From: an uncultured bacterium
GTDB taxonomy: Bacteria; Bacillota; Clostridia; Oscillospirales; Acutalibacteraceae
Reading direction: 5' to 3'
Length of the DNA: 32,736 nucleotides
NCBI GenBank assembly: GCA_949293385.1
Contig: CASFDQ010000121.1
Span: 1-32,736, forward strand
In this document: piece by piece, positions 1 to 32,736 of the stretch
How positions within the stretch are numbered: position 1 is the first letter of the stretch
Layout: each line of letters begins with the position of its first letter
Made by a program: the position numbers and the translations under genes
Notes under the pieces: generated by a model
What the model saw: only the letters and a program-made list of their open reading frames with translations
Databases searched by the model: none
What the model was told of the DNA's origin: nothing

Positions 1-134
1 CGCCGCGGATATTATGACATATCCGAAGCGTACAAGTCTATGCACTTAATATGATTGAACCGCCGTGTACCGAACGGTACGCACGGTGGTGTGAGAGGTC
101 GGCTGGTCAACTAATGGTCAGCCTCCTACTCGAT
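1..134 (+). mobile_element. 3' end of a group II intron (domains V and VI)
   Basis: Positions 57-90 form a 34-nt hairpin with the layout of group II intron domain V. ACCGCCGTG (58-66) faces CACGGTGGT (82-90), with an upper TACC/GGTA stem, a GAAC loop and a two-base CG bulge on the 3' side near 80-81. The CGC triad sits at 61-63. Positions 93-131 form a domain VI-like stem: GAG/CTC, AGG/CCT and GGCTG/CAGCC pair. A single unpaired A at 128 is the expected lariat branch point, about 6-7 nt before a likely 3' splice site near 134. The reverse transcriptase/maturase, if any, lies upstream of the window. The intron end sits about 36 bp from the purL stop codon, antisense to purL. Domain V is quite convincing; the exact 3' boundary is inferred. 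Confidence 0.8.
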
Positions 135-170: not shown

Positions 171-3100
171 TTATTTAAAGTATTTAACGGCCGAGTCGAA
201 CATCTTCATATCGTAGTTACCCGATACGTTTTTGTAGAGGCCGGCTCCGGTACGCTCGCTATGACCCATCTTACCGAATACTCGTCCGTCGGGAGAGGTT
301 ATACCCTCGATTGCACAGACAGAGTCGTTGGGGTTAAAGAGAATATCCGAGGTGGGGTTGCCGTCAAGATCGACGTACTGAGTAGCGATCTGACCGTTTG
401 CGGCAAGCTTCTTTACAAGCTCCATATCGCAGAGGAACTTACCTTCGCCGTGAGAGATCGGAACGTTATAAACGTCACCGACATTGGTTGCGGCAAGCCA
501 GGGAGACTTATTTGAAGCGATTCGGGTCTGAACCATTCTCGACTGGTGACGGCTGATGGTATTGAAGGTAAGGGTGGGGCAGTTTTCGTCGGTGTCGATT
601 ATCTCGCCGTAGGGCACGAGACCGAGCTTGATAATTGCCTGGAATCCGTTACAGATTCCGCACATAAGACCGTCGCGGTTCTTAAGAAGCTCGTTTACCC
701 GCTCCTTAACGGCACCGGCCCTAAAGAAGGCGGTAATGAACTTACCCGAGCCGTCGGGCTCGTCTCCGCCCGAGAAGCCGCCGGGGATGAAGATTATCTG
801 CGACTCCTTTACCTTTTCGGCAAAGGCGGAAACAGAATCGGAAATTCCCTTGGAGGTTAAGTTCTTGATAACGAAGATCTCGGGCTCGGCACCTGCGTCA
901 CGCATAACCTTTGCGGTATCAAACTCGCAGTTGGTACCGGGGAACACGGGGATAAGTACCTTGGGTCTTGCAACCTTGATAGCGGGGGCTACGCGGTTTT
1001 CGGCAGTGTAGGAGAAGGCTTCGATCTTCTCGCCGCTTCCCTGCTTAATGTTGCAGGAGTAGACCTTTTCGAGCTTGTCCTCGTAGATCTTCTGAAGGTC
1101 TTCGGCCTTAATGCACTTATCGCCGTAGAAGATAGCGTTTTCTTCCATAGTAACGCCGAGGTATTCGCCGACCTCGATATCCTCATTGAGTTCGAGGATA
1201 AATGCGCCGTAGTTATAGCCGAATATCTCGCTCATGGGAACGTCGTCGGCAAAGGCGAAGCCTACACGGTTACCGAAGGTCATCTTCATAACGGCTTCGG
1301 CAATACCGCCGTAGGTAGGAGTATAGGCGGCTACGGCCTTACCCGTGACGATAAGCTCGTTTACGGTCTTAAAGACTTCGAGCTCGGATCCCGTTACGGG
1401 GAGTCCGTTCTCGTCAAGGTCGGGCTTTATAATAACGACCTTATGGCCTGCGGCCTTGAACTCGGGAGAAATTATGTTCTTAACGTCATCGGTGGTAACG
1501 GCGAAGGAAACGAGGGTCGGAGGAACGTCGATATCCTCGAAGGAGCCGGACATAGAGTCCTTACCGCCGATTGCGGCAATGCCGTAGTCAAGCTGAGCCT
1601 TGAAGGCGCCGAGAAGGGCCGAGAAGGGCTTGCCCCAACGCTTTTCTTCCTTTCGGGGACGCTCGAAATACTCCTGGAAGGTGAGATATACGTCCTCAAA
1701 CTTAGCGCCTGCGGCAATAAGCTTGGAGACCGATTCTACAACGGCTAAATATGCGCCGTGGTAGGGGCTCTTTTCGGTTATATAGGGGTTATAGCCCCAA
1801 GCCATTAAGGAAACGGTATCGGTATGAGCCTTTTCGACAGATATCTTATTGACCATTGCCTGAATGGGGGTCTGCTGATATTTTCCGCCGAAGGGCATAA
1901 GGACGGTACCTGCGCCGATGGTGGAGTCGAAGCGCTCGGAAAGGCCGCGCTTAGAGCAGACGTTGAGGTCGTCGGCCAGCTTCATATATTCGTCGATAAA
2001 GTCCTCTCCGACCTGCTTATCGTAGGCCTCGGGCTTCGACGCGCATACCTTTATATGCTTTTCGGCACCGTTGGAGTTCAAAAACTCACGGGAGATATTA
2101 ACGATAGACTTGCCGTTCCAGTTCATAACGAGACGGGGCTCGGCCTGAACCTTTGCTACGACGGTAGCCTCAAGGTTTTCCATTTCGGCAAGCTCTTTAA
2201 AGCGTTCTACGTCCTTGGGTTCTACAACAACGGCCATACGCTCCTGTGATTCGCTTATTGCAAGCTCTGTTCCGTCAAGTCCGTCGTACTTCTTGGGAAC
2301 GGCGTTAAGGTCGATAACAAGACCGTCGGCAAGCTCTCCTACCGCAACAGAGACGCCGCCTGCGCCGAAGTCGTTACAGCGCTTGATAAGAAGGGAGGCT
2401 TCCTTGTTGCGGAAAAGACGCTGAAGCTTTCTTTCCTCGGGGGCGTTACCCTTCTGAACCTCTGCACCGCAGGACTCTAAGGATTCTAAGGTGTGAGACT
2501 TGGAGGAGCCGGTAGCTCCGCCGCATCCGTCACGGCCGGTTCTGCCGCCTAAGAGGATAACGATATCTCCGTCCTCGGGACGCTCGCGGCGAACGTTTTC
2601 TGCGGGAGCGGCAGCGATAACTGCGCCGATCTCAAGACGCTTTGCAACGTAGCCGTCGTGATAAAGCTCGTCTACCTGACCGGTAGCAAGACCGATCTGA
2701 TTACCGTAGGAGGAATAGCCTGCGGCGGCGGTAGTAACTATTTTACGCTGAGGCAGTTTTCCGGCCATAGTCTCGCTGACGGGCTTGGTGGGGTCTGCCG
2801 CACCGGTAACGCGCATTGCGGCATAGACGTAGGAACGGCCCGAAAGGGGGTCACGGATAGCGCCGCCGATACATGTAGCGGCACCGCCGAAGGGCTCGAT
2901 CTCGGTGGGGTGATTATGGGTCTCGTTCTTAAAGAGAAGGAGCCAGTCCTGCTGCTCTCCGTCAACGTTTACCTTTATCTTAACGGTGCAGGCGTTTATC
3001 TCCTCCGACTCGTCGAGATTAGGCAGTTTGCCCTGCTTATTCAGATATTTAGCGGCAAGGGTGCCGATGTCCATAAGGTTTATGGGCTTGGTGCGTCCAA

Positions 3101-3866
3101 GTTTTTCACGGACTGCCATATACTCCTCAAAGGCGGCGTGAATGGTCTTGTCCTCGAATTCTGCCTCGTCGATGGTGGTGAGGAAGGTGGTATGACGGCA
3201 GTGATCCGACCAATAGGTATCGATCATACGGATCTCGGTGATGGTGGGGTCGCGGTGCTCGGTCTTAAAGTAGTCCTGACAGAACTTGATGTCGTCGTTG
3301 TCCATTGCGAGACCGTATTTGGTAACGAAATCGGCAAGGCCTTTTTCGTCGAGGTCTAAAAATCCGTCGAGGGTTGCGACCTCGGTGGGGATATCATATA
3401 CCGAAACTAAGGTCTCGGGCATCTCGAGGGAGGCCTCTCTGCTTTCAACGGGATTGATAACGTACTTTTTAATAGCATCTACGTCGGCGTCAGAAAGCTC
3501 TCCGTAAAGGACGTAGACCCTTGCGGTCTTAACGAGAGGACGGTCGCCCTGAGAGATTATCTGAATGCACTGAGCGGCAGAGTCGGCGCGCTGATCGAAC
3601 TGACCGGGAAGGTGCTCGGTTGCGAAAACAACGGCGCCCTCGGTATTTTCAACCGAATCGGTTACGATATCGAGCTGAGGCTCAGAAAACACCGTTTTAA
3701 CGGCATAATCGTAAAGCTCCTTTTCGATATTCTCAACGTCGTAGCGGTTGAGAAGGCGAAGGTCGCTTAGTCCCTTAATCTGAAGTAAGGAAACAATGTC
3801 GTTTTTAAGCGCTTTTGCTTCGTTAGCAAGAGCTTCCTTTTTTTCTACGTATACTCTGTAAACCAT
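171..3866 (-). CDS. purL: phosphoribosylformylglycinamidine synthase, single-chain
   Basis: This cytoplasmic enzyme converts FGAR to FGAM with ATP and glutamine (fourth step of IMP synthesis). At 1231 residues it is the long single-chain form, with PurS-like, synthase and glutaminase parts in one protein, rather than the split PurL/PurQ/PurS of Bacillus. Visible signatures are the synthase motif THNHPTEIEPFGGAATC in the first third and the second-half motif GGKDSMSG. The C-terminal class I glutaminase begins near PVFPGTNCEFD. Its nucleophile is Cys1072 in GICNGFQ, and the His/Glu pair is His1139/Glu1141 in SHGEGKF. The start is supported by AAGGAG about 8 nt upstream. It is the last gene of the pur operon, 10 nt after purD, and its ribosome binding site overlaps the end of purD. 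All catalytic landmarks look intact. Confidence 0.97.
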   Translation of the reverse strand: MVYRVYVEKKEALANEAKALKNDIVSLLQIKGLSDLRLLNRYDVENIEKELYDYAVKTVFSEPQLDIVTDSVENTEGAVVFATEHLPGQFDQRADSAAQCIQIISQGDRPLVKTARVYVLYGELSDADVDAIKKYVINPVESREASLEMPETLVSVYDIPTEVATLDGFLDLDEKGLADFVTKYGLAMDNDDIKFCQDYFKTEHRDPTITEIRMIDTYWSDHCRHTTFLTTIDEAEFEDKTIHAAFEEYMAVREKLGRTKPINLMDIGTLAAKYLNKQGKLPNLDESEEINACTVKIKVNVDGEQQDWLLLFKNETHNHPTEIEPFGGAATCIGGAIRDPLSGRSYVYAAMRVTGAADPTKPVSETMAGKLPQRKIVTTAAAGYSSYGNQIGLATGQVDELYHDGYVAKRLEIGAVIAAAPAENVRRERPEDGDIVILLGGRTGRDGCGGATGSSKSHTLESLESCGAEVQKGNAPEERKLQRLFRNKEASLLIKRCNDFGAGGVSVAVGELADGLVIDLNAVPKKYDGLDGTELAISESQERMAVVVEPKDVERFKELAEMENLEATVVAKVQAEPRLVMNWNGKSIVNISREFLNSNGAEKHIKVCASKPEAYDKQVGEDFIDEYMKLADDLNVCSKRGLSERFDSTIGAGTVLMPFGGKYQQTPIQAMVNKISVEKAHTDTVSLMAWGYNPYITEKSPYHGAYLAVVESVSKLIAAGAKFEDVYLTFQEYFERPRKEEKRWGKPFSALLGAFKAQLDYGIAAIGGKDSMSGSFEDIDVPPTLVSFAVTTDDVKNIISPEFKAAGHKVVIIKPDLDENGLPVTGSELEVFKTVNELIVTGKAVAAYTPTYGGIAEAVMKMTFGNRVGFAFADDVPMSEIFGYNYGAFILELNEDIEVGEYLGVTMEENAIFYGDKCIKAEDLQKIYEDKLEKVYSCNIKQGSGEKIEAFSYTAENRVAPAIKVARPKVLIPVFPGTNCEFDTAKVMRDAGAEPEIFVIKNLTSKGISDSVSAFAEKVKESQIIFIPGGFSGGDEPDGSGKFITAFFRAGAVKERVNELLKNRDGLMCGICNGFQAIIKLGLVPYGEIIDTDENCPTLTFNTISRHQSRMVQTRIASNKSPWLAATNVGDVYNVPISHGEGKFLCDMELVKKLAANGQIATQYVDLDGNPTSDILFNPNDSVCAIEGITSPDGRVFGKMGHSERTGAGLYKNVSGNYDMKMFDSAVKYFK

Positions 3867-5161: not shown

Positions 5162-6346
5162 TTAGTGATGGAAAAGTCTCATTCCGGTAAAGGCCATAGC
5201 CATATTGTACTTATTGCAGCATTCGATAACTACGTCGTCGCGGATAGAGCCGCCGGGCTCGGCAATATAGGAAACGCCGCTCTTCTTGGCGCGCTCGATA
5301 TTATCGTCGAAGGGGAAGAAGGCATCGGAGCCAAGTGCTACACCGCTGATGGTATCGAGATATGCTCTCTGCTCCTCGCGGGTAAAGGGCTCGGGCTGGG
5401 CAGTAAAGTATTTCTGCCAATTTCCGTCGGCGCAAACGTCCTCTTCGTTTTGGTTGATATATCCGTCGATAACGTTGTCGCGGTCGGGGCGGCCAAGCTC
5501 GGGCTTAAAGGGAAGGTTTAATACCTTTTCATTCTGACGGAGGAACCAGGTGTCGGCCTTTCCGCCTGCGAGACGGGTGCAGTGAACGCGGGACTGCTGA
5601 CCTGCTCCGACACCGATAGCCTGTCCGTCAACGGCATAGCAGACCGAGTTGGACTGAGTATACTTAAGGGTTATAAGAGAGATTATAAGGTCGCGGATGG
5701 CCGACTCGGGCATATCCTTCTTCTCGGTAACAACGTTCGAGAGAAGCTCTTTGTTGATCTTAAACTCGTTTCTTCCCTGCTCGAAGGTTATTCCGTAGAC
5801 CTGCTTATGCTCAACTGCAGCAGGAACGAAATCGGGGTCGATCTTAACGATGTTATAAGAGCCTTTTCTCTTGGATTTTAAGATCTCGAGTGCTTCGGGC
5901 TCATAACCGGGGGCTATAACACCGTCGGACACTTCCCTCTTTATCATAAGAGCGGTAGTAACGTCGCAGACGTCGGAAAGTGCTACCCAGTCGCCGAAGG
6001 AGCACATACGGTCGGTTCCTCTTGCTCTTGCATAGGCGCAGGCCAGGGGGGACTCGTCGAGACCCTCGATGTCGTCTACGAAGCAGGCCTTTTTAAGGGT
6101 ATCGGAAAGAGGAAGACCGATCGCGGCAGAGGTGGGGCTGACGTGCTTAAAGGAGGCTGCGGCAGGCATACCGAGGGCCTCTTTAAGCTCCTTTACGAGC
6201 TGCCATGAATTGAAGGCGTCGAGGAAGTTGATAAAACCGGGACGTCCGTTTAATATTTCGATGGGAAGTTCACTTCCGTCGTGCATAAAGATCTTTGCAG
6301 GCTTTTGGTTGGGGTTACAACCGTATTTAAGTTCGAATTCTTTCAT
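5162..6346 (-). CDS. purH: stand-alone AICAR formyltransferase (PurH transformylase part only)
   Basis: This 394-residue protein matches only the C-terminal AICAR transformylase part of bifunctional PurH. The N-terminal MGS-like IMP cyclohydrolase domain is absent. Recognisable segments are LKYGCNPNQKPA near the N-terminus (RYGxNPHQ in PurH), the catalytic Lys67-His68 in SFKHVSPTSAA, RGTDRMCSFGDWVALS, the lysine-rich strand before YNIVKIDP, LKYTQSNSVCYA, and GVGAGQQSRVHCTRLA. It formylates AICAR to FAICAR with 10-formyl-THF. The adjacent downstream-of-pathway step is supplied by the PurO-type cyclohydrolase encoded immediately upstream (15-nt gap). The pair therefore replaces bifunctional PurH. 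The length and complete motif set argue for a true stand-alone enzyme, not a broken PurH. Confidence 0.92.
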   Translation of the reverse strand: MKEFELKYGCNPNQKPAKIFMHDGSELPIEILNGRPGFINFLDAFNSWQLVKELKEALGMPAAASFKHVSPTSAAIGLPLSDTLKKACFVDDIEGLDESPLACAYARARGTDRMCSFGDWVALSDVCDVTTALMIKREVSDGVIAPGYEPEALEILKSKRKGSYNIVKIDPDFVPAAVEHKQVYGITFEQGRNEFKINKELLSNVVTEKKDMPESAIRDLIISLITLKYTQSNSVCYAVDGQAIGVGAGQQSRVHCTRLAGGKADTWFLRQNEKVLNLPFKPELGRPDRDNVIDGYINQNEEDVCADGNWQKYFTAQPEPFTREEQRAYLDTISGVALGSDAFFPFDDNIERAKKSGVSYIAEPGGSIRDDVVIECCNKYNMAMAFTGMRLFHH

Positions 6347-10788: not shown

Positions 10789-10829
10789 AAAAAGGCAGTC
10801 CGAGCCTCAATAAAGGTTTACGAACTGCC
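10789..10829 (-). terminator. riboswitch-controlled intrinsic terminator of the pur operon
   Basis: On the minus strand, GGCAGTTCG (10829-10821) pairs with CGGACTGCC (10802-10794) with one G-T wobble. A short CCT/AGG extension and a TTTTT tract (10793-10789) follow. The 5' arm shares the bases TGGGCAG with the conserved 3' element of the ZTP aptamer, so aptamer and terminator cannot both form. Confidence 0.85.
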
Positions 10830-10908
10830 CAGACGGTCGACATTTTTCGGTGCTTTTGCTCCCCTTTGGTTTCCCAATGATCCGTCAGTTACAAAAGCCC
10901 ATATTTTT
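10826..10908 (-). promoter_or_regulatory. ZTP (pfl) riboswitch upstream of purE
   Basis: Read on the minus strand, the leader contains CTGACGGA (10888-10881), GGGGAGC (10864-10858) and CCGTCTGGGCA (10836-10826), in the order and spacing of the conserved pfl/ZTP aptamer blocks. GACGG of the first block can pair with CCGTC of the last, as in the known pseudoknotted fold. The aptamer senses ZTP/ZMP, which accumulates when 10-formyl-THF is short. With the overlapping terminator just downstream, ligand binding should allow read-through into purE-purL. Position and partner genes match the class exactly. Confidence 0.92.
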
Positions 10909-20182: not shown

Positions 20183-20207
20183 CGCCTCTATGAAAAACAT
20201 AGAGGCG
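20183..20207 (-). terminator. T-box terminator hairpin
   Basis: CGCCTCTATG and CATAGAGGCG form a perfect 10-bp stem with a 5-nt loop. On the minus strand it is followed by TTATTTTATTTTT. It lies between the T-box sequence and the ilvA ribosome binding site. Confidence 0.93.
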
Positions 20208-20435
20208 AAGAATTAAATAAAATCTCCGTGGTACCACTCTAATTGTTGCATAGCAACCACTTTCGCGTACGTTATTATACGCTTTCCCTTTAACGCAGGT
20301 CTACGGATCACTTACTCGTTTCCTTTCGGCTTTCGGCTCAAGGGTGATCTTTGCATTTTCGTCATATTGCCTTTCACCAAACGGCAACTCTCTGAAAATC
20401 GGGGAAATGCAACCGTCCCTCTCATCGCTTTTGTT
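20208..20435 (-). promoter_or_regulatory. T-box leader, isoleucine specifier (AUC)
   Basis: On the minus strand the leader holds the T-box core AGAGTGGTACCACGG (20240-20226). Stem I includes CGATGAGAGGGA near the 5' end, the conserved CAGAGAG bulge and the apical TGGTGAAAGGC loop. The upper stem TTGCATTT/AAATGCAA and the base pairs AGGG (20420-20417)/CCCT (20344-20341) frame an internal loop on whose 3' side lies AUCA. The triplet AUC (20348-20346) is in the specifier position, so the leader should read uncharged tRNA-Ile. Uncharged tRNA-Ile would favour the antiterminator and switch ilvA on. Confidence 0.92.
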
Positions 20436-22910: not shown

Positions 22911-24287
22911 TCAGACTTGTTTTTCGGCCCAGCCGGAGGTTTCGTAGGTCTTGCCTTCGGGGGCTACGCGGCGGAAGATGTTGTAGGCGCGGTCGCTTAT
23001 CCCGTCGAACCAGTCTGCGAACTTCGGGTCGCCCCAGGAGCAGAAACCTGCAAACACGATGTTCTGTACGCCCGGGCTTACTATCAGCTTGTTCCAGGTG
23101 GTCTCCATTATACCAAGGCAGCCTTCGGTTTCTGCGGTGCTGACGGCGGCGGGGATATTTTCATGTATCTCCCAAGGGCAACAGATAACGTCAAAGCCGT
23201 ATTCTCTGATTTTTGAGGTGGTTTTCCATGGAGCACTTACCGCGTCATACTGCCAGTCGGCAACGATAAGACGCTTATCAAGCGAGGAAAGAAGTTTCTC
23301 GGCGTATTTCTTCGTCGAATTGCATCCGTAGGCAATTCGCCAAGGGTGATTCGGGTCCTTGGGCTCGTCGGGGAAAAAGGCAGTGCTCAGCAGCATATCT
23401 CCCCAGATGATTCCCCTTCTTCCCTTCTTAGAAAGGTCGTCCTGAACCTCGCGTAGCCAGTCACAAAGCTCGTCAGCTTCGAATTCCATTCCAGCTTCAT
23501 CACAGCCGAGATGGAAATATTCTCCCTCGCCAAGGAGGTCGCAAAGCTCGCTTCTAACGCTTTTAAGGAGGGCTTTTACCTCGGGGTCCTTAAAGTTCCA
23601 GACCCAGCCGTAGCTCTTCGGATAGTAAAGGTGCTCGAGGGCAAGATTTTGGTCTAAAACGGTATGCTTTCCCGCATAGCCCATACGGGCAAGGGCAGCG
23701 TGACCGAGATGCTGAAAGAAGGGTATGACCTCCATGCCAAGGGCGTTTGCCTCATTTGCAAGCTCGCGTATCTCGTCCTTTGTAAAGGCGTTTGGCCAGG
23801 CAAGCTCCTTCAGGGCATCGAGCTTGATCGAGCCCCAAGTCTCGAGAATAACGTGGGTATACTTTGCCATACCGCAGGTACGAATGACCTTGCGGATGGT
23901 GTTCATAGAGTATTCGGGGAAAAGGCAGATATGTATAGCCCTGAAGGGTAGCTTTGCGGCATCTCTAATGCAGGCGGTTTCTATTCTATAATCGTTTTTA
24001 CCGTAGCAGAAGATCATTTCAAGGAGACTTAAAAAGCCTTTTACGGCGGTTTTATAGTCTTTACCCTTAACGTAGGCGCCCTCCTCGGTTACGTTAATAA
24101 CGTATTCGGCATCGCCGATATCGGCAGAGGTGGCGTTACCGACAGAAAAAACGGTATCGTTATCGGTAAAGGTGTATTCCCAATTTACGGTATAAGCGTA
24201 GTTATGCACCGTATCAAGGATGGCAGGGTCGTTGGCCTTTTTGGGCACTGAGATATTCTGATATTCCGCAAGTTTAAAAAAGTTCAT
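22911..24287 (-). CDS. intracellular GH20-like beta-N-acetylhexosaminidase
   Basis: A 458-residue protein when started at MNFFKLAEYQ, which is preceded by a perfect AGGAGG. The longer frame to 24449 crosses the promoter and the upstream terminator and is not credible. Residues 1-110 resemble the small alpha/beta GH20b domain. The TIM barrel follows, with PFRAIHICLFPEY at its first strand, IPFFQHLGHAA, and the catalytic Asp263-Glu264 pair in YFHLGCDEAGM. IIWGDML and the tryptophan-rich strands near LIVADWQYDA come later. GH20 enzymes release terminal GlcNAc or GalNAc by substrate-assisted catalysis. There is no signal peptide, so it would act on imported oligosaccharides. It has its own promoter and terminator, next to the glycan operon. 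Confidence 0.88.
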   Translation of the reverse strand: MNFFKLAEYQNISVPKKANDPAILDTVHNYAYTVNWEYTFTDNDTVFSVGNATSADIGDAEYVINVTEEGAYVKGKDYKTAVKGFLSLLEMIFCYGKNDYRIETACIRDAAKLPFRAIHICLFPEYSMNTIRKVIRTCGMAKYTHVILETWGSIKLDALKELAWPNAFTKDEIRELANEANALGMEVIPFFQHLGHAALARMGYAGKHTVLDQNLALEHLYYPKSYGWVWNFKDPEVKALLKSVRSELCDLLGEGEYFHLGCDEAGMEFEADELCDWLREVQDDLSKKGRRGIIWGDMLLSTAFFPDEPKDPNHPWRIAYGCNSTKKYAEKLLSSLDKRLIVADWQYDAVSAPWKTTSKIREYGFDVICCPWEIHENIPAAVSTAETEGCLGIMETTWNKLIVSPGVQNIVFAGFCSWGDPKFADWFDGISDRAYNIFRRVAPEGKTYETSGWAEKQV

Positions 24288-24308
24288 AATAAGACCTCCT
24301 TTGGTTTG

Positions 24309-24337
24309 ATTATAACAACCTATACGATAATTTGCAA
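24309..24337 (-). promoter_or_regulatory. promoter of the GH20-like gene
   Basis: On the minus strand TTGCAA (24337-24332), 17 bp, then TATAAT (24314-24309). It lies between the terminator of the upstream operon and the AGGAGG of the GH20-like gene. Confidence 0.8.
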
Positions 24338-24362
24338 GTGGACAATTCGAACTAAAAGGTGT

Positions 24363-24387
24363 AAAAAAACAGACGCGTCTGCGTCTG
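24363..24387 (-). terminator. terminator of the glycan operon
   Basis: On the minus strand CAGACGC and GCGTCTG pair around AGAC, followed by seven T. It lies 10 bp past the stop codon of the 1525-residue protein gene. Confidence 0.9.
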
Positions 24388-24396
24388 CTTTTTAGT

Positions 24397-27300
24397 TTAG
24401 TTTTTCTTTCGTTTAATAAAGTCAAACAGGCAAACTGCGGCAAGGGCAATAACCGCGACCGCAGATACGGCTATAACCGCTGTCCACGGGAAGGCTTCCT
24501 TTGCCTCCTCCTGAGGCTTCGGCTCGGGAGCAAGGACTTCCTCATCCTTTTCAAGCAGACCGAGGTCACCCGTTTTTCCGACGGGGACGACCTGCAGGGA
24601 ATCGAAATAGAGGCTCTTACCCGCTTCGGTCTCAATAACGAGATAGGGTGCGTTTGCGGTGACCGCCATAGTCACCTTCTGCCACTTACCCTTCTGTATT
24701 TCGGCAATGCTGAATTCCTCGTAGCCCGCCATATCCGAATCGAACTGCGGATGGTTGGCGTGATAGACCTTAAGCTTTGCAGAGGTAAGGCTTTCGTCGT
24801 CGGTAGTGATATAAATTACCACGTCGTAGACCTGACCAACCTCTAAAGCGTTTTTATAGGAAAGAAGGAAACGGGGCGCTTCCGTACCGTCACCTTTTGC
24901 GTGAATGGATTTAAGGCCGCCTTGAACGAGGCTCGGAGTATAGCCCTTAACGCCCGGTCGGAAGCTTTCGACCGAGGAATTATAGTCGTAATTCGGATCG
25001 AGGTCTCCGTCAAAGTCCTCGGTAAAGCCGATAGATATCCACTTTGCGTAAAATACCGTATCAAAATCGGGGAAAAGTCCGTCCTTAACGGGAGTACTGA
25101 AGTTAACCGAATGATACCAACCGTCGAACTTATATCCGTATCTTGTGGGTTTTGGAAGCTCGCTGACCTTAAGCTCGGTATGCTGCGGATAACCGAAAAT
25201 CGACTCGCAGGCGGAGCCTTCCATACTCGCGAAGGATATCTCGACCTTTTTGGGAAGTTGCTTATTACTGTAATTTTCTGCATTTTTAAAGCAACGAAGC
25301 ACGGGCGTTCCGCCGTCGACTATCATCCAGATATTCTTGTAATCGAGCTCGGGCATCACGGTTTTAGCGCCGCTTCCTCTTATCATCATAAGAGCAATGT
25401 TAGTAGCTCCGTTAACGTTTCCTCTGGTACCTCTGTGATATACGTTGGTAAGTTCCATCATAGAAGCGCCTGTTGGATGGCCCGAAAGGGTAATTCCGTC
25501 ATCGGACACGAAGAAGGAATTTTTAACGGTGATAGGCAGACGGGTGTTCCACGCATTTGCGATTATCTGACCGCCGTAGTTTCCGTCAACATAAAGGCGA
25601 CCAGTGAAGTAGCAGTTATCGATATCTACCTTCATACCGCAACCGCCAACAAGTCCGCCTGCGTTATAGCAGGAGATTTTTACAGTATGGTCGGCAAAGC
25701 ACTGACTTATAACGGGAGCAACAAAGTCTTCATCCTTAAAATTCCAACCGACTATTCTTCCGACAAGGGCACCTGCGTAGGATTCCTCGCCGCTTACGGT
25801 TACTGAGGACCGAGTTATGCCGACGCGTCTGATTACGGCACCGCTTGTTATCTGTGGGAAAAGACCTGCGTAAGCAAATTCGGTATTGAAATAGAGTCCG
25901 CTTACGACGTGACCGTTACCGTCAAAATTGCCTGCAAACTCGCTCGTTCCGCCAAACCATTGACGGGCGGTTTTTGTCCAATTCTCAGAGCTTGTGTCGT
26001 TAAGTCGGATGTCCGCACCGAGCTTATAGTATTTACCTGCGGTTGCGGGATCGAGAATCAGTTTTGCGAGCTGTTCGGGGGTTTCAATTATATAAGGCGA
26101 CTCTTTAGTGCCTTCGCCCGAAGCATATTTAGAGGCGAAATAGCCCGACCATACGCCGCCCTTACTGCCTTCATCGAATACCTTAGGTATGAAATCGGAC
26201 GTGAGAAGCTTTTGATGAGGGGTTGAACCGTCAACCGTCATCCATACGTTGTTCCAGTCAAGCTCATCCATTGCGGTACGGGCGGCTTCTCCCGTCATAT
26301 CCTTAAGAGATATTTGCTTGGAGCCGGTAATCCACTCGGTTCCGTAAAGAGCTCCCGCAAGGTTGGGTATTATGGAAAAACGGTAGGCATTAGCTCCCAC
26401 ACTATAGCAGTCGAGAAGCTCCCAATCCTTGCCCCAGATATCGCCGACAAGGGCGTTTGCGCGATCCTTTGCGGTAGCGGTCACCTTACCCGTAAAGTAG
26501 GAGGAATAGAGTTTTAATCCTCTGTTGGTGCCGCCTGCAACGAGGCCTCCCACGGTCTGACCCCTTACCGTTACGGATGAATCGGCCGAACAGCCTACCA
26601 CTCTTGCGTAAAGGCCTGTTTCGGCATCGGTGAGTTTGCCGATCATAGCGCCGGTATATCCGCTTCCGGAAATAAATGAATCTCTTATATGCAGGTTGCA
26701 GACCGATGCCATCACACTGAACTGCGGGAAAAGACCTGCGGCGGTTTTGTCAAATTTATTTTCCTTTTCGTTAAAAGGCGTTGGGGTTTTACCAAGATAC
26801 AGCCCGTAGATTTTAAAGCCCTTACCGTCGAGATTGCCGTAAAATACCTCGCTGTCGGAATCGGTATACCATACGTTTGGTGAGTTCTTCTGCCAGTTTT
26901 TGTCTGAGGTATCGTTGAGGTAGATATCTGCGCCAAGCTCGTAGTAGCGGTTTTTGGTATTTGGGCTTTTAAGGAGATAGCGAAGCTGATCGGCAGTTTC
27001 GATTACAAAGGGATCGTTTTTAGCTCCCTTTCCCGAAGCGTAGGCAGTACGGTCGCCGGTAGGATCCTCTTCCTCCCCTGTTATGGAGGAAAAGACCTTA
27101 AGCTTGGGAGTTGCGCCGTCGACCGTTTCAAAGAAATTATCAAAGTCGAGTTCCGACATTGAGGTCTTGGATTCTTCACCCCTCATAGAGTCGAGGTCGG
27201 AGATATAGGTAAAGCACTCAAACTCCCCTGCCGTGCGCTCGGAGGTATATATATTCTTATAAATACTGCTTAGAGCAGAGCCGTTTTTATAGAGCCAGGA

Positions 27301-28987: not shown

Positions 28988-30439
28988 TTATCTTCCTACG
29001 TAGGTTTTTGGGGTTGTGTCGATATAGAGCTTACCGACACCCGGCTTCTGATACACGCGAAGCCAATCGATATAATAACAGAAGGGCATTTTCGAGTGGT
29101 CCTCAACGACGTTTTCGTAGTAGCTCATATCATCGGCAAAGACGTGGTTATTAAACATAAGGAAAAGAGGCTCGTGGAAGCCCTCAATGTCGGAGCATTC
29201 GTCGAAGGACTTGGTTATATCGACGGTTTCATACTTTTCGCCGTCGACAAAGAAGGAATATTCCTTTTCGGTCCACAAAAAGCCGTAGGTATGATACTGC
29301 TGCGAAAGGGTTTTCAAATCGACACCCTTTTCTTCCCAGTTCCAACGAACCGTAGAACCGTCGGAATAAGAATTTTTATCCGTTCCGTGAATTTCGGAAT
29401 AGTTATAAATACCTGTGTTATAGTGACGGTGAATGGTAGGCTCAAGAGACGTTTCGCTTCCGAAGACCTCGAAAATATCGACCTCTACGCCGTATTTGGC
29501 ATTTGCGGCCTTTTCGGGGTCGTAGGCAACTCCGCCAACCTTATTTTTACCGCCGTTCGCGCCGATCTGAAGTCCCCAGAAGGAAGGCCAGCTTCCCTTC
29601 TCAAAGGGCACGCGGGCTCTTATCTCGGCATAACCGTAGACGTAGTTCATCTTATATTTCGTAACTACCGAATAGGGAGATTTATAGAGGGTTCCCTCAC
29701 GCAGAGGGTTAAAGGTATTTATTCCGTGAAGCTTGAGCCTGCCGTCGGCAACGTCGACCACGTCCTTTTCCCAGGATATTTCAAGCTTTGTACTTCCCGA
29801 CATTCTTTCCTCGAAATCCCACTTGGTAAAATCAAGGTCGTTCCCTTCAAACTCGTCGCCCCAGACATAGTTATAGCCGTCTAAAACGGTAGCTTTAAAA
29901 TCGGTTTTAAGGGCAAAGGTTATCGCCTCGCCTTTTTTGGGAGCGAGTCGGACAAATTTATTAACGGCGGAATTAAGGGTTACGTCGTGGCCTGCGTCAA
30001 AAACAAGCTTTTTTCCCTTTAGAGAAACCTTTATATCCGAGTCGAATATATCTTTTGCGCTCTCGGCGCGGTTGGTCTTACCGACAAGAATTTCCCGTTC
30101 CTGCTCAGAGGCGGTATCGGCCGTAACGGTGAGATTGATTTTATGTTCTTTAGAAAAATAGTCGACAAGAATCTCTGCAGAGGCCTTCGCAGCGGTATTT
30201 CCTTTAGGATATACCACCTTATAGCCCTCAGGGCCCTCCCAAACGGCGGTCTCATAGTCGAAATCTCCGTCGGTATCGACGAAAGGCTCGGCTGCCTCGG
30301 GCTTTTCGGCGGGGTCGCGGTAGGTTTTATTTTCCTCGGGGTCGTTAGGCGCAGAAACGGTCTCCTGCGGCTTTGAACCGCAACCGATAAGACCTACCGA
30401 CAAGACGGCTGCAAGAATAAGACAAACTATTCTTTTCAT
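28988..30439 (-). CDS. GH16 family lipoprotein (beta-glucanase/laminarinase-like)
   Basis: A lipobox ending at Cys20 (VGLIGC) marks a membrane-anchored extracellular lipoprotein of 483 residues. Residues about 50-190 form a small alpha/beta domain (VVYPKGNTAAKASAEILVDY) like those found before many glycosidase barrels. The GH16 domain starts at NYVWGDEFEGNDLDFTKW and includes YGYAEIRARVPFEKGSWPSF. Its catalytic motif ExDxxE appears as EVDIFE, and the end is YYIDWLRVYQKPG. All three acidic residues are present, so it should be active. Family members cut internal beta-1,3 or beta-1,3-1,4 glucans, agarose, porphyran or xyloglucan, and the substrate cannot be told by eye. It lies 12 nt after the GH42-like gene and 13 nt before the GLUG-repeat gene. 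Confidence 0.92.
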   Translation of the reverse strand: MKRIVCLILAAVLSVGLIGCGSKPQETVSAPNDPEENKTYRDPAEKPEAAEPFVDTDGDFDYETAVWEGPEGYKVVYPKGNTAAKASAEILVDYFSKEHKINLTVTADTASEQEREILVGKTNRAESAKDIFDSDIKVSLKGKKLVFDAGHDVTLNSAVNKFVRLAPKKGEAITFALKTDFKATVLDGYNYVWGDEFEGNDLDFTKWDFEERMSGSTKLEISWEKDVVDVADGRLKLHGINTFNPLREGTLYKSPYSVVTKYKMNYVYGYAEIRARVPFEKGSWPSFWGLQIGANGGKNKVGGVAYDPEKAANAKYGVEVDIFEVFGSETSLEPTIHRHYNTGIYNYSEIHGTDKNSYSDGSTVRWNWEEKGVDLKTLSQQYHTYGFLWTEKEYSFFVDGEKYETVDITKSFDECSDIEGFHEPLFLMFNNHVFADDMSYYENVVEDHSKMPFCYYIDWLRVYQKPGVGKLYIDTTPKTYVGR

Positions 30440-32347: not shown

Positions 32348-32474
32348 ATAAATAATTCGTTCCATTTTTATTATATAGATTAAAAACAACTAAATCAATG
32401 CATTATATTTATTTTTTAGTATTAAATTGAACTAAAATTTCATAATGTTATGGTATTAAAAAAGGATGTATCCG

Positions 32475-32512
32475 AACGGAGGCACTTCGTAAAGAAGTAG
32501 TCTCCGTTTTCT
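32475..32512 (+). terminator. terminator-like two-part hairpin
   Basis: AACGGAG (32475-32481) pairs with CTCCGTT (32502-32508), and ACTTC with GAAGT inside it. TTTTCTAT follows on the + strand. There is no + strand gene upstream in the window, so it may end a small RNA or be part of a repeat element. Confidence 0.5.
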
Positions 32513-32525
32513 ATATAAAGAAAAA

Positions 32526-32554
32526 ATGACACTTTCAGTTAGTGAAAGTGTCAT
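32526..32554. repeat. perfect 12-bp inverted repeat
   Basis: ATGACACTTTCA (32526-32537) and TGAAAGTGTCAT (32543-32554) are perfect inverted copies with a 5-nt loop. It could be an element end, a protein-binding palindrome or an RNA hairpin. The run 32348-32474 before it is AT-rich with nothing else I recognise. Confidence 0.75.
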
Positions 32555-32589: not shown

Positions 32590-32736
32590 CCGAAAAACAG
32601 CGTTTCTTTTTCGGATGGTAAAGTGATATTGCAAACTGCCGTTTGCAGTGATATTTTTGCCCAAAGGCAAAAGTGATATTGAAACCTTACGGTTTCAGTG
32701 ATATTATATTCGCCTTTAAAACTGCCCGAAGGGCAA
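32590..32736. repeat. hairpin array with GTGATATT spacer, 25-bp period
   Basis: GTGATATT begins at 32623, 32648, 32673 and 32698, exactly 25 bp apart. Between successive copies lies a 16-nt hairpin with a 6-bp stem and 4-nt loop, then A. The stems differ in sequence but are all perfectly paired: GCAAAC/GTTTGC, TTTGCC/GGCAAA, GAAACC/GGTTTC. A related hairpin TGCCC/GGGCA (32723-32735) follows the last copy. An 8-bp CCGAAAAA/TTTTTCGG hairpin (32590-32614) precedes the first. The array reaches the window edge and probably continues. There is no coding frame. Confidence 0.85.

Follow-up and report, generated by a model that had tools for sequence, protein, structure and literature searches.

We report that the hairpin array at the right-hand end of a contig from an uncultured Acutalibacteraceae bacterium belongs, with a probability of roughly 0.6, to a mobile element that is linked to IVP and inserts into the loops of transcription terminators; it would be the left half of a short MITE-like copy, probably non-autonomous. 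Comparison among sister copies lends good support to mobility and to the terminator-loop target, while the role of IVP and the involvement of a recombinase are what we infer.

The array in the window

In this work, the window designates the whole stretch of DNA analysed (32,736 nucleotides), which is the entire contig C121. Its final base, 32736, falls inside the array, which is only half visible because the assembly breaks the contig at that position; the missing 3′ half of the copy was looked for in the assembly and not found. The visible features, all on the forward strand, begin with the presumed 5′ half of an invaded host terminator (AAAAAAGGATGTATCCG, 32458–32474), assigned by analogy with copies having pairing flanks, its 3′ partner being absent from C121 and not found in the assembly. 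The flanking dinucleotide AA (32475–32476) is the complement of the TT immediately inward of T5, following a rule derived from 20 copies. T5 itself (32477–32506) is the palindromic 5′ end hairpin CGGAGGCACTTCGTAAAGAAGTAGTCTCCG; it recurs at element 5′ ends and is related, in inverted orientation, to the hairpin that closes sister copies on the 3′ side. Further inward lie a subterminal hairpin conserved in sister copies (TGACACTTTC-AGTTAGT-GAAAGTGTCA, 32527–32553) and a pre-array hairpin identified from the fold (CCGAAAAA...TTTTTCGG, 32590–32614), a related form of which is present in the copies on contigs C105 and C145.

The array alternates the spacer AGTGATATT with hairpins: S1 (32622–32630), left hairpin 1 (GCAAAC-TGCC-GTTTGC, 32631–32646), S2 (32647–32655), left hairpin 2 (TTTGCC-CAAA-GGCAAA, 32656–32671), S3 (32672–32680), left hairpin 3 (GAAACC-TTAC-GGTTTC, 32681–32696) and S4 with a central extension (AGTGATATT-ATATTCGCC, 32697–32714). 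It continues into the first right-side hairpin (GCCC-GAA-GGGC, 32724–32734), which is complete in the copies on C92, C105, C108, C114 and C145, and beyond it the right-hand spacers (AATATCACT...), which start at 32735, are cut off by the end of the contig. Spacers S1 to S3 were called from sequence and the shuffle test, the left hairpins from sequence and covariation across copies, with the fold adding to hairpins 1 and 3, and the central extension from a partner-base match in sister copies. The motif GTGATATT starts at 32623, 32648, 32673 and 32698, in agreement with the period of exactly 25 bp claimed by the first-pass annotation, and occurs six times in the window against 0.92 expected, a count reached in 0 of 100 shuffles. 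Also as claimed, the three inserts differ in sequence and remain perfectly paired, with 6-bp stems and 4-nt loops, and the additional hairpins noted upstream (32527–32553) and at the window edge are real. The array strand folds at −50.2 kcal/mol, compared with −29.6 ± 3.6 for shuffled sequences (z = −5.75).

CRISPR arrays have identical repeats of ~23–50 bp and unique, non-palindromic spacers, whereas here the constant part is 9 bp and the inserts are palindromic; the first-pass exclusion of CRISPR therefore holds, and its exclusion of a simple tandem repeat was right as well, as was its claim of selection on paired stems. A CRISPR-association survey lists the 23S rRNA IVP as array-associated (PMC10910872); some of what it counted as CRISPR arrays may have been regular repeats linked to IVP, like the present ones.

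Elsewhere, the window contains Rfam matches to a group II intron domain (58–134, forward strand, near the left contig end), a ZMP/ZTP riboswitch (10820–10902, reverse strand) and a T-box leader (20198–20434, reverse strand), and encodes on the reverse strand an FGAR amidotransferase (PurL-like, 171–3866), a GH20-like protein (22911–24449) and a GH16 protein (28988–30439).

Copies and architecture

A search of the bacterium's own 2.1-Mb genome with the motif AGTGATATTnTATTCGCC returned about 15 core copies. Core copies are present in 9 of 10 genomes of the genus, and sister copies are also numerous in ruminant-gut Clostridia. A three-spacer scan of viral contigs gave 30 matches, a single one of which is genuine, the rest being coding sequence or simple tandem repeats. 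Contigs C92, C108 and C114 start inside the core and C121 ends inside it, as would a repeat that short-read assembly failed to cross. The right halves of the copies on C92, C105, C108 and C114 are 98–99 % identical and their flanks 22–32 % identical, the level of unrelated sequence; several near-identical copies with unrelated flanks, the pattern by which MITEs are recognized, point to a mobile and recently active element.

Dispersal in multiple copies and a common architecture are both established at the level of sequence. Full copies follow the order S1-hairpin-S2-hairpin-S3-hairpin-S4 (nTATTCGCC)-loop-hairpin-R1-hairpin-R2-hairpin (GCgaaGC)-R3-hairpin (CGCC..GGCG)-R4, then a palindromic end hairpin, where S is AGTGATATT and R is AATATMACT, the (near) reverse complement of S. 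Each end of the element is a palindromic hairpin, and the two hairpins are related in inverted orientation. What the first-pass annotation took for a one-sided row of units is hence one arm of an inverted structure. Its suggestion of a longer element, maybe a mobile unit, agrees with the full sister copies with unrelated flanks. The Rfam Gut-1 match, the insertion into terminator loops and the IVP gene escaped it, all three requiring tools.

The covariation check proposed at first pass was run on 127 copies. Distinct left-side hairpins have stems of at least 5 bp in 74–85 % of cases, against 8–17 % after swapping halves between copies, and right hairpin 1 keeps at least 4 bp in 71 % against 11 % when swapped; right hairpin 3 is uninformative in this respect, its CGCC/GGCG arms being nearly constant. 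Selection on structure and spacing had been claimed, with the proviso that copies elsewhere lacking the 25-bp period or the paired stems would speak for chance. Paired stems are kept across the 127 copies, but the strict 25-bp period is a feature of the window copy and not general, the spacer-to-spacer distance in other copies being ~22–28 bp. The reading of the array as chance or degenerate repeat debris is contradicted by the shuffle tests, by conservation and by covariation, and was rejected as extremely improbable.

In full copies, the central extension ATATTCGCC reads as the reverse complement of GGCGAATAT, the final unit on the right, and its variable base matches the partner in that unit in 123 of 127 copies (A-T 50, T-A 46, C-G 27). 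Either the extension and the last hairpin's 5′ arm compete for a common partner, or the two are inverted binding sites. Nested pairing of left and right spacers (S1:R4, S2:R3 and so on) is weakly supported, with z ~4 for S4:R1 and lower values for the others.

Several further arrangements were observed. On contig C116 of the same genome (~6120–6260), a GTGATATT copy is interrupted by a palindromic array with spacer GCGATAT/ATATCGC, that is, as nested elements. A conserved structured block, GAACCAGCATCGCATTTGTA..ACAAATGC..GGGC..GCCCAAACCCA, lies 5′ of the array at L113, L161, L201 and other loci, and other subfamilies have different blocks there, e.g. CCCTGCTTGT..GTATNAGACAAA.

Insertion sites

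In many copies the outer flanks are complementary, the left one comprising an A-tract and a GC-rich stem and the right one its reverse complement and a T-tract. At short-copy distance, 27 of 92 copies have flanks with exact complementarity of at least 10 bp, compared with 0.8 % when flanks are swapped, and over a wider range complementary flanks occur in 44 of 124 copies, against 3.3 %, long paired flanks being a property of only ~30–40 % of copies. Neighbouring genes are aimed at the insertion (toward versus away, 22 to 3 for the 5′ gene and 30 to 3 for the 3′ gene). For 20 copies with well-defined ends, the joined flanks fold at a mean of −15.8 kcal/mol, compared with −7.2 ± 3.7 for swapped flanks, and in most of them restore an intact short-loop terminator, such as AAAAAAGGCGAC-CGAC-GTCGCCTTTTTT at L117 and AAAAAAGACAGTC-GTATT-GACTGTCTTTTTT at L172; these empty sites are reconstructions from joined flanks. 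Relatives in the genus share neighbour genes (rnhA, spoIVA), and rnhA ends in a plain terminator in several of them; true empty sites by orthology were not seen in these relatives, where intergenic DNA is too diverged. For many copies, a position in the loop of a bidirectional intrinsic terminator that separates two convergent genes is well supported by this comparison of flanks. The sites are terminators between protein-coding genes, or positions next to tRNA genes, and not a 23S rRNA helix. The second placement class, directly beside tRNA genes, was noted at eight loci, and a recurrent 3′ end hairpin (e.g. GAAAACGACAAGTTTC..GAAACTTGTCGTTTTC) seems to be the tRNA's terminator at several different tRNA genes.

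Location between convergent genes is also what REP/BIME-like repeats would display if selected at gene ends as terminators or mRNA 3′-end stabilisers, and the resemblance of the end hairpin to the tRNA's terminator in tRNA-adjacent copies would suit them too. The invaded sites, however, already possessed a terminator, and cargo genes and the IVP gene would be left unexplained, making this reading very unlikely. An element inserting into terminator loops shares with MITEs, REP/BIME and IS200/IS605 its small size, multiple copies, intergenic placement and palindromic ends, and differs from them in its target and in its long palindromic hairpin array. No Y1 (HUH) transposase was present among the ORFs inside the cargo-bearing copies examined, and no RAYT was seen in the copies read.

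Most insertions are bordered by a two-base repeat, and the junctions of the proposed insertion would carry a direct repeat of 2–3 bases. The outside dinucleotides of the two sides are identical in 16 of 20 copies (permutations: mean 3.4, maximum 10 in 5000), and in 14 of 19 copies the two bases immediately inward of the 5′ hairpin are their complement. Within a subfamily the dinucleotide is constant, so that it may form part of the element ends rather than a duplicated target site, or else reflect a choice of target by pairing. The guides of IS200/IS605 elements choose targets by pairing, which the possible dinucleotide choice described here resembles.

Relation to Gut-1 RNA

The half-missing window copy matches the Rfam model of Gut-1 RNA (RF01706) at 32621–32709 on the forward strand, its 35.5 bits (E 1.7e-5) falling short of the gathering score of 50. 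Three sister copies exceed that threshold (55.9, 50.6 and 50.3 bits), and canonical Gut-1 copies in the same genome reach 90 bits. Gut-1 has 30 matches in that genome and is present in 10 of 10 genomes of the genus. The matches are often inverted pairs, forming the two arms of one palindrome, and the canonical copies that score 90 bits share this palindromic design, with GTGAAAT as spacer, and stand right after tRNA genes. Three short hairpins, a constant GUGAAAU-like spacer and gut bacteria as hosts are common to both; the Rfam model, however, covers one arm, whereas the element is a larger palindrome with end hairpins, a terminator-loop site and an IVP partner, and the window copy differs further in its spacer, GTGATATT, and in falling under the threshold.

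Gut-1 was put forward in 2010 as an RNA candidate from gut metagenomes only, with no function given, and was judged by its authors to be certainly an RNA (Weinberg et al. 2010, PMC2864571). In a literature search covering mostly freely accessible papers, that discovery paper was the only one found on Gut-1, and no paper connecting Gut-1, IVP and terminators was found. The 2010 verdict (PMC2864571), the several copies exceeding the gathering score and the covarying hairpins would all agree with an independent structured ncRNA, Gut-1 in the Rfam sense, transcribed through the terminator region and endowed with its own cellular function, its dispersal being secondary. Against such an RNA, the matches to the two halves fall on opposite strands, the expectation for a palindrome but not for a single transcript, and 30 matches occupy one genome, with unrelated flanks where compared. 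We consider it fairly unlikely, and transcription by itself would be compatible with a mobile element.

Association with IVP genes

The IVP family was assigned through PF05635 (E 1e-27), TIGR02436 and PDB 2rld (E 6e-29). IVP genes are found in 10 of 10 genomes of the genus versus 0 of 14 control genomes. About a tenth of copies carry a divergent IVP ORF, located on the 5′ side (7 of 99 arrays) and not on the 3′ side (0 of 110). The window copy has no IVP ORF, an IVP gene is lacking near most arrays, and in some genomes that contain arrays, a part of them incomplete, no IVP was seen. Longer copies hold unrelated cargo between the 5′ end and the array: a DUF559 nuclease-like gene, an AraC-type regulator, a VanW-like gene, unknowns or the IVP gene (cargo spans at three loci with unsure 5′ boundaries are left out). 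A PADLOC search returned no match for IVP, and no recombinase was found in the copies read, including those bearing IVP. IVP is not known to possess catalytic residues.

At least four hairpins lie upstream of 36 of 60 non-classical IVP genes, compared with 6 of 65 other ORFs (p ~1e-9). Across genus and family, most IVP upstream regions contain an array of the same design whose spacer differs by clade: GTGATATT, GTGAAAT (that of Gut-1), CATATCATC, TGTAATC, ATGAAG, ATGAATTG and AGCTAAATT. Two IVP clades, one of them the classical clade, have short tandem repeats in place of the array, and classical-clade relatives elsewhere in the phylum include genes within 23S rRNA. On the IVP tree, spacer or repeat class requires 11 changes (minimum 9), against 35.5 with shuffled labels, the class labels having been assigned by hand to loci that may simply be inherited whole.

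Some additional placements were noted. Two IVP genes have arrays that, by eye, abut 5S-rRNA-like sequence. Heptamer-like tandem repeats stand upstream of four classical IVP genes and are reminiscent of the GACAGAT heptamers before S23p in Coxiella, and five IVP genes from other families of the phylum are apparently located inside 23S rRNA genes (IVS).

An array directly upstream of IVP genes, next to what appears by eye to be a TTGAAA-N17-TATAAT-like promoter, and with a spacer type that tracks IVP clade, could be an operator or cis-regulator of these genes, IVP-less copies being decayed remnants. Most copies, however, have no IVP and yet retain paired stems, paired flanks and end hairpins, and the near-identical copies that spread recently have no IVP gene in their readable part; we regard an operator as decidedly unlikely.

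Discussion

In the mobile-element reading that we favour, a full copy would comprise a 5′ palindromic end hairpin, optional cargo, a subterminal structured block, the palindromic array (three AGTGATATT hairpins, the centre and about four hairpins with the reverse-complement spacer) and a 3′ palindromic end hairpin. The element would enter the loop of a bidirectional intrinsic terminator, leaving the terminator stem around it, and such an insertion would be nearly harmless because the insert remains framed by the stem and the T-tract. The 23S rRNA IVS would share this logic of entering a hairpin loop, keeping the stem and doing little harm. The folded array, whether as RNA or as extruded or single-stranded DNA, would be recognized by the element's own IVP, with the spacer conferring specificity and the hairpins shape, and IVP would move copies together with a partner nuclease, recombinase or reverse transcriptase. 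Base pairing to the 5′ end hairpin may determine the target dinucleotide. The protein-binding array envisaged at first pass was rightly raised as a possibility, with IVP as its putative ligand.

The Avd protein of diversity-generating retroelements belongs to the same protein superfamily as IVP and works with structured RNA and a reverse transcriptase, an analogy by which IVP may recognize its own array. PF05635 resembles Avd (PMC10053308); unlike in Avd systems, the elements read showed neither a reverse transcriptase nor a template/variable repeat pair. The 23S rRNA IVS, such as those of Coxiella, are inserts in rRNA helices that encode the same protein family (S23/IVP; PMC4990558). As in the elements described here, a PF05635 gene may lie inside, the insert sits in an RNA hairpin loop with paired flanks (here, in sister copies), and ahead of the IVP start codon there are short repeats, which in Coxiella are heptamers. 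In contrast, the target here is transcription terminators and not rRNA, a hairpin array replaces the heptamers, and many copies have no IVP and carry other cargo.

We further advance, as a tentative proposal standing at somewhat less than even odds, that these elements form a new mobile-element class in which an Avd-like four-helix-bundle IVP would act as specificity factor for the array of its own clade and drive insertion into terminator loops, with the dinucleotide chosen by pairing of the 5′ end hairpin, and of which Gut-1 RNA and 23S rRNA IVS would be two faces.

The element brings into one context two things that have no assigned function, Gut-1 RNA, described in 2010, and the IVP/S23 proteins, familiar for decades from rRNA IVS elements, and offers a first handle on what both of them do. 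Testable predictions follow: every IVP clade should pair with a spacer of its own, and the target rule should be the loops of bidirectional terminators, where insertion would be nearly harmless. It would explain contig breaks in many genome bins of gut Clostridia and, if IVP moves the elements, it would have a bearing on the role of Avd in diversity-generating retroelements.
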